Shown here: piece after piece, positions 11,195-28,022 of the stretch
Layout: the number at the start of each line of letters is the position of its first letter
Numbering within the stretch: the stretch's first letter is position 1
Assembly (NCBI GenBank): GCA_002281755.1
Contig: NCHB01000002.1
Location: forward strand, 62,001 to 126,000
DNA length: 64,000 bases
Source: Sulfurovum sp. 16-42-52
Lineage (GTDB): Bacteria > Campylobacterota > Campylobacteria > Campylobacterales > Sulfurovaceae
Direction: 5' to 3'
Program-made: the position numbers and the translations under genes
The notes under the pieces: model-generated
The model's input: the letters and a program-made list of their open reading frames with translations, nothing else
Database searches by the model: none
What the model was told of the DNA's origin: nothing

Positions 11195-11242
11195 TTGTAA
11201 AGTGTATATTTTTACCTTTGTTTACATGTAAAAGATATCATT

Positions 11243-11302
11243 TTATGCTTCCTAAGTAGGAAGCATAAGTTAAAAAACAATAGGCTGTTTTTTAACTTAT
11301 GC
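11243..11302 (+). promoter_or_regulatory. Two mutually exclusive hairpins between oadA and pckA
   Basis: Hairpin A: TTATGCTTCC (11243-11252) pairs with GGAAGCATAA (11259-11268), 10 perfect bp, loop TAAGTA. Hairpin B: 11263-11279 pairs perfectly over 17 bp with 11286-11302, loop ATAGGC. Both need bases 11263-11268, so they cannot form together in one RNA. Hairpin A or B may end the oadA transcript, but neither has a strong T-tail, so an attenuator-like or stability role toward pckA is also possible. Confidence 0.6.
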
Positions 11303-11343
11303 TTTAGCATTTTACAAATACACTGTACAAAAGAGGATACTAT

Positions 11344-24914: not shown

Positions 24915-25589
24915 TTATCCACACTTTCCAGTTTCACATTTCATCTGTTTTGTATTGTTAGCTTTACTTTTATATGTATCAAGATTTACCATACTTTGAC
25001 TATAGAAAAAGAGAGTTATTAAAAATAATAGTAGGCTTATTATTTGATATCTTGAGATTTGTTGTATTTTTTCTTTTGTTTTTACCTCACAAACATTACC
25101 GGGACAATAAAGCGGCTTGCTTTTTTGTAGTTTAAAGTACAAAATACACCCCAAACAGATACCAAAAGCTGTCTCAGAAAATAAAAGCGTGATACATAGC
25201 AGACAAATGGCTATTTTTACATTTGTCATAATTTCAAATACCACAATGATGAAAAACATAATCACAGAGAGGATAAAACCTATGGACCATGCAAATCTTT
25301 TTTGTATAGCTCCTACATATTCTGGCGTTTGATTTTGCACAAAAAAACGTCCCAGTACGAGACTTGGTGCGTAAGTAGGATTGATAAACACACGTATAAA
25401 AAAATCAACCATAAAGACTGTGACGAATATTTTGGTAAAAACAAAATCATGTGTCAGATAGGAGTTTACAAAAGATCCAATCGCAGGTAAAAGTAAAATC
25501 CCTGCTCCTGCGCGTGCTTCTCTCTCATTGAGTACAGGTATATCGTACCCATCAACTTTTTCACCAAAATATACATACTTATCCATCAT
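24915..25589 (-). CDS. DUF4395-like membrane protein with C-terminal Cys tail
   Basis: A 224-residue membrane protein. The core (about 20-150) resembles DUF4395: an early hydrophobic pair, FFIRVFINPTYAPSLVLGRFFV, and later GICLGCILYFKL. It lacks the usual CP-x-S start of the family. An extra helix near 185-200 is followed by a polar tail ending MKCETGKCG, matching the tail of the SafE-like protein at 18989-19783. It is divergent from a second DUF4395 gene, and both face a palindrome-promoter region. Function unknown; a sulfur or redox role is inferred from neighbours. Confidence 0.7.
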   Translation of the reverse strand: MMDKYVYFGEKVDGYDIPVLNEREARAGAGILLLPAIGSFVNSYLTHDFVFTKIFVTVFMVDFFIRVFINPTYAPSLVLGRFFVQNQTPEYVGAIQKRFAWSIGFILSVIMFFIIVVFEIMTNVKIAICLLCITLLFSETAFGICLGCILYFKLQKSKPLYCPGNVCEVKTKEKIQQISRYQIISLLLFLITLFFYSQSMVNLDTYKSKANNTKQMKCETGKCG

Positions 25590-25670: not shown

Positions 25671-25686
25671 TAAATCTATAGATTTA
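25671..25686. promoter_or_regulatory. 16-bp perfect palindrome, candidate operator
   Basis: TAAATCTATAGATTTA is a perfect inverted repeat ending one base before the -35 hexamer at 25688. It lies between the two divergent DUF4395 genes. The rightward operon encodes an Rrf2 regulator, which could bind here and control itself; this is inference. Confidence 0.55.
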
Positions 25687-25687
25687 C

Positions 25688-25716
25688 TTGACTTTTAAAA
25701 AAAAAATGGCTAATAT
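25688..25716 (+). promoter_or_regulatory. Near-consensus sigma70 promoter
   Basis: TTGACT, a 17-bp spacer containing ten consecutive A, and TAATAT. This is the strongest promoter match I see in the window. Transcription would begin near 25723, about 178 nt before the DUF4395 start, and run through a structured leader. Confidence 0.65.
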
Positions 25717-25740
25717 ACAAAAGATTCAATAAGCGTCTGT

Positions 25741-25861
25741 AAAAACCCTAGATAGTTACACCGGACAAGAGCATCAGATTTTTCTTGGTTAATTGTAGTC
25801 TCCCCTATATTGTTAATGGTTAAGCTAAGAAAAATCGGTGTCGTAATATCTCTAGGGTCTT
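25741..25861 (+). ncRNA. Structured 5' leader (candidate riboregulator)
   Basis: The leader folds as a long helix. Outer arms: ACCCTAGA (25745-25752) with TCTAGGGT (25851-25858), GATA/TATC and TTAC/GTAA, then CCG/CGG. Inner arms: GATTTTTCTT (25777-25786) with AAGAAAAATC (25827-25836), 10 perfect bp. A one-sided segment 25764-25776 (GACAAGAGCATCA) and a 30-nt apical region remain unpaired. I cannot match it to a known riboswitch class. The rest of this 311-bp gap (25590-25900) is AT-rich and codes nothing I can support. Confidence 0.55.
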
Positions 25862-25900
25862 TAGAGATGCATTATTGGCATACTGCATAAAAGGTATCTT

Positions 25901-26359
25901 ATGGCTCAAGTCTGTCCTATATCAACCAGAAGAGTTGACTCCAACATGACAAGAATCATATCTTTTCAAGTGGCACTCTTTGCCATCATACTACTTGCCA
26001 CACAAGAGCCACTTTTTGCAGCCATTCTTCTTTTTGACTTCGCTATGAGAGCCTTACGATTTGTACACTACAGTCCTTTTCATATTATAGGCAGTTTTGT
26101 ACTTTCTGGCTGGGGCATCGCACCCAAACTTTGTGATGAATCACCCAAAAGATTTGCACTTTATCTTGGTTTGCTTGCTTCACTCTGTATCGTTGTTTTT
26201 TATCTGGTGGGATTGACTGTACTTGCAACATCCATAACGGCTGTTTTAATTATTTGTGCATTATTGGAAACACTATTCGATTATTGTATAGGTTGTAAGA
26301 TATACTACGCCATTCAAATCGCTAAAGGTTTATACAATAATGATAGGAATTTCCAGTAA
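25901..26359 (+). CDS. DUF4395 membrane protein
   Basis: A 152-residue membrane protein with the family's canonical N-terminus VCPISTRRVDSNMTR, FDFAMRALRF near residue 50, and a late Cys pair in DYCIGCKIYYA. About four hydrophobic segments are seen. DUF4395 proteins often sit with rhodanese or thioredoxin genes; molecular function is not established. AAAAGG lies upstream. The gene overlaps the Rrf2 gene by 20 nt and heads an operon with a sulfhydrylase-like enzyme. Confidence 0.8.
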   Translation: MAQVCPISTRRVDSNMTRIISFQVALFAIILLATQEPLFAAILLFDFAMRALRFVHYSPFHIIGSFVLSGWGIAPKLCDESPKRFALYLGLLASLCIVVFYLVGLTVLATSITAVLIICALLETLFDYCIGCKIYYAIQIAKGLYNNDRNFQ

Positions 26360-26753
26360 AACGATTTATGCTATCGCAGCACTTCAGCAGTTGGGAGATG
26401 TCTCCGATAAAGAAGTCCTGAAGATCAAAGAGATAGCAGCACAAGCATCCATCCCTCAAAACTTTTTAGAACAGATACTCTTGGAGCTTAAAAAACAGGG
26501 TCTTCTTGTAAGCATTAAAGGTGCTTATGGCGGCTACAGGCTGGCTAAAAGTCTTCAAGATATCACACTCAAAGATGTTGTCATGATATTGGAATCAGAT
26601 ATCTTTTCTGATATAGATCAAAAAGACAATCCTTCGCTTCAACTGTTTTGGGATGACTTGAAGCAAAAAGCTTTAACACTGTTTGAGATACCGCTAAGCG
26701 AGCTGAAAGAGTATCAGTATAAAGTCAATCAAACACTTAATTATTCAATATAG
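26340..26753 (+). CDS. Rrf2-family transcriptional regulator
   Basis: A 137-residue winged-helix regulator: ISSKTIYAIAAL at the start, recognition region ASIPQNFLEQILLELKKQGLL, wing KGAYGGYRLAK. It has no cysteines, so it cannot hold the iron-sulfur cluster of IscR or NsrR; cluster-free members such as CymR control cysteine metabolism. It begins inside the DUF4395 gene and is followed after 9 nt by an O-acetylhomoserine-sulfhydrylase-like gene, so autoregulation of a sulfur operon is likely. Confidence 0.88.
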   Translation: MIGISSKTIYAIAALQQLGDVSDKEVLKIKEIAAQASIPQNFLEQILLELKKQGLLVSIKGAYGGYRLAKSLQDITLKDVVMILESDIFSDIDQKDNPSLQLFWDDLKQKALTLFEIPLSELKEYQYKVNQTLNYSI

Positions 26754-26762
26754 GATGCAAAG

Positions 26763-28022
26763 ATGAACCAAACAACCGATTTTAACTATTTTAACACCTT
26801 ACTTGTGCATAGTGTGGGTGAGAAAGTGGGTCCTATTGCACCCACAATCACCCCTTCTGCTGCGTATGGGTATGTAGATGCTGAGGAAGCTGAAGGTATT
26901 TTTGCAGCGCAAGTCAATAAACCGCTCTATGCTAGAGTGGGTAATCCTACCAACGCAAAACTTGAAGCGATTGTTGCAAAGATGGAGGGTGGTTTTGGTG
27001 CCATTGCTACGTCATCGGGTATGGGGGCTATTTCTATGGTATGTACGGCATTTTTATCTGCTGGTGATGAGTTGCTTTGCATCGGTGGATTTTTTGGCGG
27101 TACCTATTCGCTGGTCAATGAAACATTGGCACGTTTTGGCATCACAAACAGCTTTTGTGAAGTAGATGATTTTGAACATATAGAAAATGCACTTAAGCGT
27201 GGCATCAAAATGGTACTGTTTGAATCTGTGGGTAACCCAAGTCTCACATTGCCGGATGTACAACGAATTATCGACTTGTGTAATCACTATGACACACTGG
27301 TGATGATAGATAATACGGCAACCCCGCTTTTGCTTAGACCGTTACAGATGGGTGCAGATATTTCTGTGCACTCTTCAACCAAAAATATGTCTGGACACTC
27401 TGCGGCATTGGGTGGTATCGCTATCTTTAGGGAAGTTAAAGAAGAGGGCGATAAGTTGCTTCATCCAAAGTATACTGATGTACATAAAATCGTTCATAAA
27501 ATGGGCAAAAAAGCCTTTATACCCATCTGTAAAAAAAGAGCCATCCGTGATTTTGGTATGACTGCCAATGCTTTTGGCTCGTTTATGACCATGATAGGAC
27601 TTGAAACGCTTTCACTCAGGGTAGAGCGCATCAACAAAAGTGTGGAAAAAGTAGCAAAGCTATTGAGCGAGCAGCTTCCGCAAACCATCAGTGTCAATCA
27701 TCCTTCATTGCCGTCTAGCCCCGATAATGCACGGTATATTTCAGATTTTCCACAAGGGTGCGGGCCGCTATTGACTCTGAACTGCGGGACAAAAGAGAGA
27801 GCATTTACTTTGTTAAATGGACTTAAAATGGTCATCTTGACTGCAAATATCGGTGACAATAGAACTTTGGCACTCCATATGACTAGTACCATTTACAGTG
27901 ATTTTAATGAAGAAGCGCGTGCTTTTCTAGGGGTAGATGAGGGTCTTATCCGCTTGTCTATTGGGCTAGAAGACCCCAATGACATCGTTGCGGATTTTTT
28001 GCAAGCTGCCACAGCACTATAG
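26763..28022 (+). CDS. O-acetylhomoserine sulfhydrylase / trans-sulfuration family PLP enzyme
   Basis: A 419-residue member of the Cys/Met metabolism PLP family. Visible elements: YARVGNPTNAKLE near residue 58, the PLP-stacking ATSSGMGAIS, the Asp-bearing MIDNTATP, and the lysine site HSSTKNMSGHSAALGG with Lys near 209. It joins sulfide to O-acetylhomoserine (MetY) or acts as a cystathionine synthase or lyase; sequence alone does not decide. Regulation by the upstream Rrf2 protein is suggested by the 9-nt spacing. Confidence 0.85.
   Translation: MNQTTDFNYFNTLLVHSVGEKVGPIAPTITPSAAYGYVDAEEAEGIFAAQVNKPLYARVGNPTNAKLEAIVAKMEGGFGAIATSSGMGAISMVCTAFLSAGDELLCIGGFFGGTYSLVNETLARFGITNSFCEVDDFEHIENALKRGIKMVLFESVGNPSLTLPDVQRIIDLCNHYDTLVMIDNTATPLLLRPLQMGADISVHSSTKNMSGHSAALGGIAIFREVKEEGDKLLHPKYTDVHKIVHKMGKKAFIPICKKRAIRDFGMTANAFGSFMTMIGLETLSLRVERINKSVEKVAKLLSEQLPQTISVNHPSLPSSPDNARYISDFPQGCGPLLTLNCGTKERAFTLLNGLKMVILTANIGDNRTLALHMTSTIYSDFNEEARAFLGVDEGLIRLSIGLEDPNDIVADFLQAATAL

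Follow-up and report, generated by a model that had tools for sequence, protein, structure and literature searches.

The closest described systems are the Correia elements of Neisseria and the BOX elements of pneumococcus, small noncoding palindromic mobile elements that lie between a promoter and a gene and are folded in the mRNA, with the arms of their terminal inverted repeats (TIRs) as the closing stem (PMC10969869; PMC3049150). In the mtrCDE transcript of Neisseria, RNase III cleaves at the Correia TIRs (PMC10969869). Structured leaders on sulfur amino-acid operons are also known in the form of SAM, SAH and related riboswitches. Campylobacterota are reported to be nearly riboswitch-free, TPP being the sole class detected in C. 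jejuni (PMC3847290).

Here we describe a leader RNA of Sulfurovum sp. 16-42-52 (GCA_002281755.1) ahead of an operon for a DUF4395 protein, an Rrf2 regulator and a sulfhydrylase-like enzyme. It lies in a 64,000-nucleotide stretch of contig NCHB01000002.1 (forward strand, 62,001 to 126,000), here called the window, in which all positions are counted unless another locus is named. The leader shares with Correia and BOX elements its place between promoter and gene and its TIR-like closing stem, but those elements are multi-copy, whereas the leader is present once, at one orthologous site across the genus, has undergone compensatory evolution and has conserved loops of its own that are not found in mobile copies. 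It differs from the SAM and SAH riboswitches in matching no Rfam family, whether at gathering or at relaxed E-value, and in having no detected expression platform and an architecture of one long coaxial stem with a one-sided internal loop and a large apical loop. T-box leaders are likewise found on amino-acid operons, and GGA and UGU motifs occur in the loops here, but there is no T-box match, no terminator and no conserved NCCA-type bulge or specifier, and UGGA is not conserved. The exposed GGA in the internal loop also recalls CsrA-bound leaders; however, none of 31 Sulfurovum genomes has a CsrA over cut-off, with E. coli, B. subtilis and T. maritima as positive controls, and the CsrA-site reading was thus ruled out.

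With Correia and BOX as precedents (PMC10969869; PMC3049150), the leader is best read as a putative transposon-derived regulatory leader. Overall, we hold with moderate confidence that this conserved 5' leader is a structured RNA of MITE origin and acts as a second, post-transcriptional layer beneath an Rrf2 operator. A family of covarying leaders linked to a single operon marks a gap in RNA catalogues, the phylum being riboswitch-poor (PMC3847290).

Operon and promoter region

The first gene of the operon encodes the DUF4395 membrane protein (25901-26359, + strand; Pfam PF14340, E 1e-28). It is followed on the + strand by the gene for the Rrf2-family regulator (26340-26753), whose best equivalog is CymR at 72 bits, under the 195-bit cut-off of that model, and by a PLP enzyme gene that is O-acetylhomoserine sulfhydrylase-like (26763-28022), this best subfamily match also falling under its cut-off. 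The Shine-Dalgarno (SD) sequence of the first gene, AAAAGG (25889-25894, + strand), does not pair with the leader in the predicted ensemble, where pairing between leader and ribosome-binding site accounts for about 1%.

A sigma-70-like promoter (25688-25716, + strand) comprises a -35 box TTGACT (25688-25693), a 17-bp spacer and a -10 box TAATAT (25711-25716), and transcription would be expected to start at about 25722-25724. Orthologous loci have the same promoter layout, and the leader follows this conserved promoter and precedes the first gene. A 14-bp perfect palindrome close to the -35 box on its upstream side, AAATCTATAGATTT (25672-25685), is conserved ahead of leader-bearing and leaderless orthologous operons alike; its own genome has no second exact match and only near-background matches at other sites. 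This palindrome is likely the operator to which the operon's own Rrf2 regulator would bind.

A DUF4395 paralog on the - strand (24915-25589) is divergent from the first gene of the operon (25901-26359, + strand), the two flanking the same promoter region, and several Sulfurovum species have retained this layout. A literature search on Sulfurovum riboswitches or DUF4395 found nothing relevant.

Position and fold of the leader

The conserved folded unit spans 25732-25873 on the + strand (covariance model R1, 129.7 bits, E 1.8e-29), and is thus wider than the extent given in the original prediction. Its minimum free energy is -46.4 kcal/mol (z = -5.3), and none of 200 dinucleotide shuffles is equally stable; the - strand of the region has a z of -3.6 against such shuffles. 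The helices and one-sided insertion proposed from the sequence are present where they had been placed, with an outer 8-bp helix (ACCCTAGA, 25745-25752, with TCTAGGGT, 25851-25858), an inner 10-bp helix (GATTTTTCTT, 25777-25786, with AAGAAAAATC, 25827-25836) and an unpaired stretch on one side at 25760-25770.

The outer helix is part of a longer stem, P1, which extends outward to 25733/25870 (GCGTCT.TAAA.ACCCTAGA) and whose strands (25733-25752 and 25851-25870, + strand) are defined by pairing and covariation. Beneath it, P2 (25755-25759 with 25843-25847) shows compensatory changes in all five of its pairs, and the one-sided internal loop holds a conserved unpaired motif at 25763-25770, which reads GGACAAGA here and GGACAAGG in most species (alignment A1). 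P3, supported by fold and covariation, follows at 25771-25790 and 25823-25841 and contains the inner 10-bp helix. P4 (25791-25821, formed by 25791-25796 with 25816-25821), identified in constrained folds, closes the apical loop AGTCTCCCCTATATTGTTA (25797-25815), which is conserved in cross-species comparison. All of these elements are on the + strand.

Covariation and strand asymmetry

In alignment A1, 96.5% of the cells are standard pairs, and pairing falls to 38-51% in controls with a slid 3' strand, a slide of one column giving about 50%. Changes on both sides occur in 14 pairs against a shuffled mean of 7.1, a number reached in none of 500 shuffles. Six of 30 pairs, located in P1, P2 and P3, covary at E<0.05 under a tree-based null in which inferred substitutions are replayed on random columns (our own R-scape-style script, not R-scape itself). 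The covariance model and the check for compensatory changes that had been suggested for the leader therefore came out in its favor.

In a DNA palindrome, G-U and A-C cells would be roughly equally frequent. Across 43 leaders the G-U to A-C ratio on the + strand is 127:13, counted over cells that are not independent, the species being related, and the selected molecule is therefore the operon-strand RNA and not a DNA palindrome. The covariance model likewise scores the + strand at about 130 bits and the - strand at about 40 bits in the same places.

Conserved unpaired sequence occurs at two places, GGACAAGG in the one-sided internal loop and the apical loop UUGUCUCCCC..AUUGUU. The sequence of P4 varies while its pairing persists (GAAATT/AATTTC, AAGATT/AATCTT, GATAAAC/GTTTATC and GAGATT/AATCTC), and on this changing stem the apical loop retains GUCUCC in most members; AUUGUU is usually retained as well. 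Eight of the 18 P1 pairs are invariant across species.

A search of Rfam 15 with the leader, which had also been proposed, returned no family at gathering or relaxed thresholds. Comparison of sequences thus shows a conserved structured RNA whose P1-P2-P3 stem is held by paired changes on the + strand. The view of the original prediction that a sulfur operon here carries a structured leader outside the known classes holds up in covariation, strand asymmetry, conserved loops and the Rfam search, and we propose the leader as a candidate new RNA family outside the catalogued classes, its ligand and effect being hypothetical.

Distribution within Sulfurovum

Blastn within the genus recovered the leader ahead of the same three genes, and 25 leaders were used to build the covariance model. 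The model matched 43 of 78 Sulfurovum genomes at ≥69 bits (range 69-145 bits); five weaker matches are divergent leaders of the same operon, which lack the internal-loop motif. In total, 48 of the 78 genomes carry the leader ahead of the DUF4395-rrf2-sulfhydrylase operon or its rrf2 gene. One carrier is Sulfurovum sp. AR (L018/L185), whose leader lies at about 21433-21569 of contig NZ_AJLE01000002.1. Among the divergent leaders, that of L098 lies directly ahead of rrf2, DUF4395 having been lost. At L115 the PLP gene is reduced to a remnant.

Most of the 30 genomes without the leader (21) have no Rrf2 ortholog. The other nine do, and comprise seven with leaderless operons, one with a decayed leader that has lost its 3' arm (L209) and one cut by a contig end. 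The seven leaderless orthologous operons keep both operator and promoter, which are followed directly by the ribosome-binding site. In a tree of Rrf2 and the PLP enzyme they branch among leader-bearing species at about six different positions, consistent with a single old gain followed by about six losses within the genus. Given these repeated losses, the leader is not essential. No full leader was found outside Sulfurovum in a 299-genome sample of the order, searched with strict filters that may have missed distant relatives.

In L009 (1692-1802) and L011 (1379-1500), about 110-120 extra bases with a palindrome of their own lie between leader and start codon, possibly a further small insertion.

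Relation to a MITE-like element

The covariance model also matches palindromes at unrelated sites in other genomes, which are copies of a noncoding element with ends GGGCACCTCTAAWAACCC. Copies are mostly 48-59 or about 262-267 bp long (range 48-290), with as many as about 26 in a single complete genome; they occur in 18 of 87 genera of the order, and a reversed-pattern control gave none. The element has the features of a MITE, namely terminal inverted repeats, no coding capacity and many copies (52 distinct). Exact 4-bp duplications lie outside the ends of 25 of the 52 copies against a permutation mean of 4.1, a hallmark of transposition. A search around 17 regions in which most ends are solitary gave no autonomous partner transposon with the same ends. 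Within this Campylobacterales family (L067-L077, L086-L110, L119, L121-L178), the forms of about 265 bp have a strongly palindromic interior and those of about 50 bp are an internally deleted form; no published description of the family was found.

P1 of the leader is homologous to the TIR of this element, GGCACCTCTAAAAACCCTAG. In the window, the 5' strand is identical to it at 16 of 20 positions and the reverse complement of the 3' strand at 17 of 20; mean identities across leaders are 15.8/20 and 16.8/20 for the two arms, against a background of 8.2. The adjoining ATGTTRTG is also common to some leaders and the mobile element. The internal and apical loops of the leader are absent from the mobile copies, and the interior of the mobile copies is absent from the leader. 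Orthologous operons without the leader represent the empty site, and no target duplication is recognizable at the leader itself.

Because P1 is homologous to the TIRs, leaderless orthologous operons exist and the tree places them among leader-bearing species, we interpret the leader as an exapted MITE. Its descent from a MITE-like element, the terminal inverted repeats of which became P1, is well supported by these comparisons, and the direction would be from MITE to leader and not the reverse since the MITE is widely and the leader narrowly spread. The suggestion that the leader might be a decayed inverted-repeat element was thus correct as to origin, P1 being homologous to a mobile TIR, but not as to decay, as selection acts on its structure at a fixed, genus-wide position. 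Scattered copies of the same repeat had been named as evidence against a leader; the leader is single-copy in its own genome, which has no MITE copies, and P1-related mobile copies are found in other genomes. The transposon origin is traceable and testable, given the MITE ancestry, sister operons that have this promoter but no leader, and mobile copies whose ends are still intact today.

Possible function and alternative explanations

The Rrf2 protein at the palindrome would provide transcriptional control, and the leader may add a post-transcriptional layer on top of it. The simplest proposal is that the rigid stem would expose both conserved loops for specific recognition, either by a small molecule or by a protein, and that binding would alter translation or half-life of the DUF4395-rrf2-sulfhydrylase mRNA. 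RNase III cleavage at the duplex might combine with loop recognition. An expression platform (terminator, SD masking or alternative fold) was not found, nor was a conserved alternative helix; the leader has no detectable terminator, and the U-tract after P1 is not conserved. Masking of the operon's own SD by the apical loop was rejected, as complementarity is no better than to the SDs of other species (permutation P 0.59). A hairpin that would compete with P1 (ATCTCTA-TAGAGAT, 25848-25868) is present here and absent in the CCCAGGG clade, and is not a family feature. Inspection of the leader sequences gave no conserved upstream reading frame. Since termination and ribosome-binding-site masking are unsupported, a readout through mRNA processing or stability is likelier, and the readout is most likely either loop recognition by a ligand or protein or processing of the RNase III type.

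In a strict metabolite-binding riboswitch, the internal and apical loops would make up a binding pocket, which might include a loop-loop pseudoknot, and a ligand would switch expression. This is possible but doubtful. Aptamer-like conserved unpaired nucleotides are present at two places on a three-part stem, although the five divergent members lack GGACAAGG, and the operon belongs to sulfur amino-acid metabolism. Complementary loop motifs for a pseudoknot also exist (GACAA with UUGUC, or AAGG with CCUU), but neither pairing is kept in every member, and complementarity within species is not above that between species (P 0.21), with no co-variation. P1 has no family-wide conserved switching partner, the leader lacks terminator and SD masking, and known riboswitches are almost absent from the phylum (PMC3847290). 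The metabolite or tRNA sensing initially suggested is hypothetical, with no expression platform found and no tRNA or tmRNA-like gene or features detected. It seems improbable that a mobile palindromic element domesticated at the base of Sulfurovum gave rise to a new ligand-sensing riboswitch class for sulfur metabolism; if it did, this would be a traceable riboswitch built from a transposon in a phylum with almost none, and a ligand, if found, would raise the interest of the leader, given that the phylum is poor in riboswitches (PMC3847290).

A serious rival, though rather unlikely, is that the leader is a processing or stability element, its long P1-P2 duplex being cut by RNase III or shielding the 5' end in the manner of Correia-type MITEs. 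P1 comprises about 18 pairs with two single mismatches and begins about 10 nt from where the transcript is expected to start, and the MITE ancestry of the leader and RNase III cleavage at the Correia TIRs of mtrCDE (PMC10969869) speak for such a role, which, however, neither needs nor explains the conserved apical loop and one-sided internal loop and leaves the maintenance of P4 despite its changing sequence unexplained.

We consider it quite improbable that the leader is the source of a trans-acting sRNA whose C/U-rich apical loop pairs with G-rich ribosome-binding sites elsewhere. An exposed UCUCCCC loop in a unit of about 140 nt behind its own promoter would suit this role, but across five genomes the complementary 9-mer AGGGGAGAC shows no enrichment, with counts at or below the reversed control, the U-tract after P1 is not conserved, and the leader is single-copy and operon-linked. 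A DNA-level element, that is, a palindromic protein-binding or cruciform site near the promoter, is very unlikely: origin from a palindromic mobile element and eight P1 pairs that never vary, beyond what pairing needs, agree with it, but the strand asymmetry of both the G-U and A-C cells and the model scores, and the location downstream of the promoter, argue against it. That the leader is a functionless neutral MITE relic is hardly credible, its TIR homology and repeated loss in the genus being outweighed by compensatory changes over P1-P3, conserved loops, a fixed position in 48 genomes and the absence of the mobile copies' interior.

Elsewhere in the window, at 11230-11310, two intergenic inverted repeats (ACTTATGCTTCCTAAGTAGGAAGCATAAGT-like and AAAAAACAATAGGCTGTTTTTT) give a weak model match of 18.6 bits and look unrelated to the leader.
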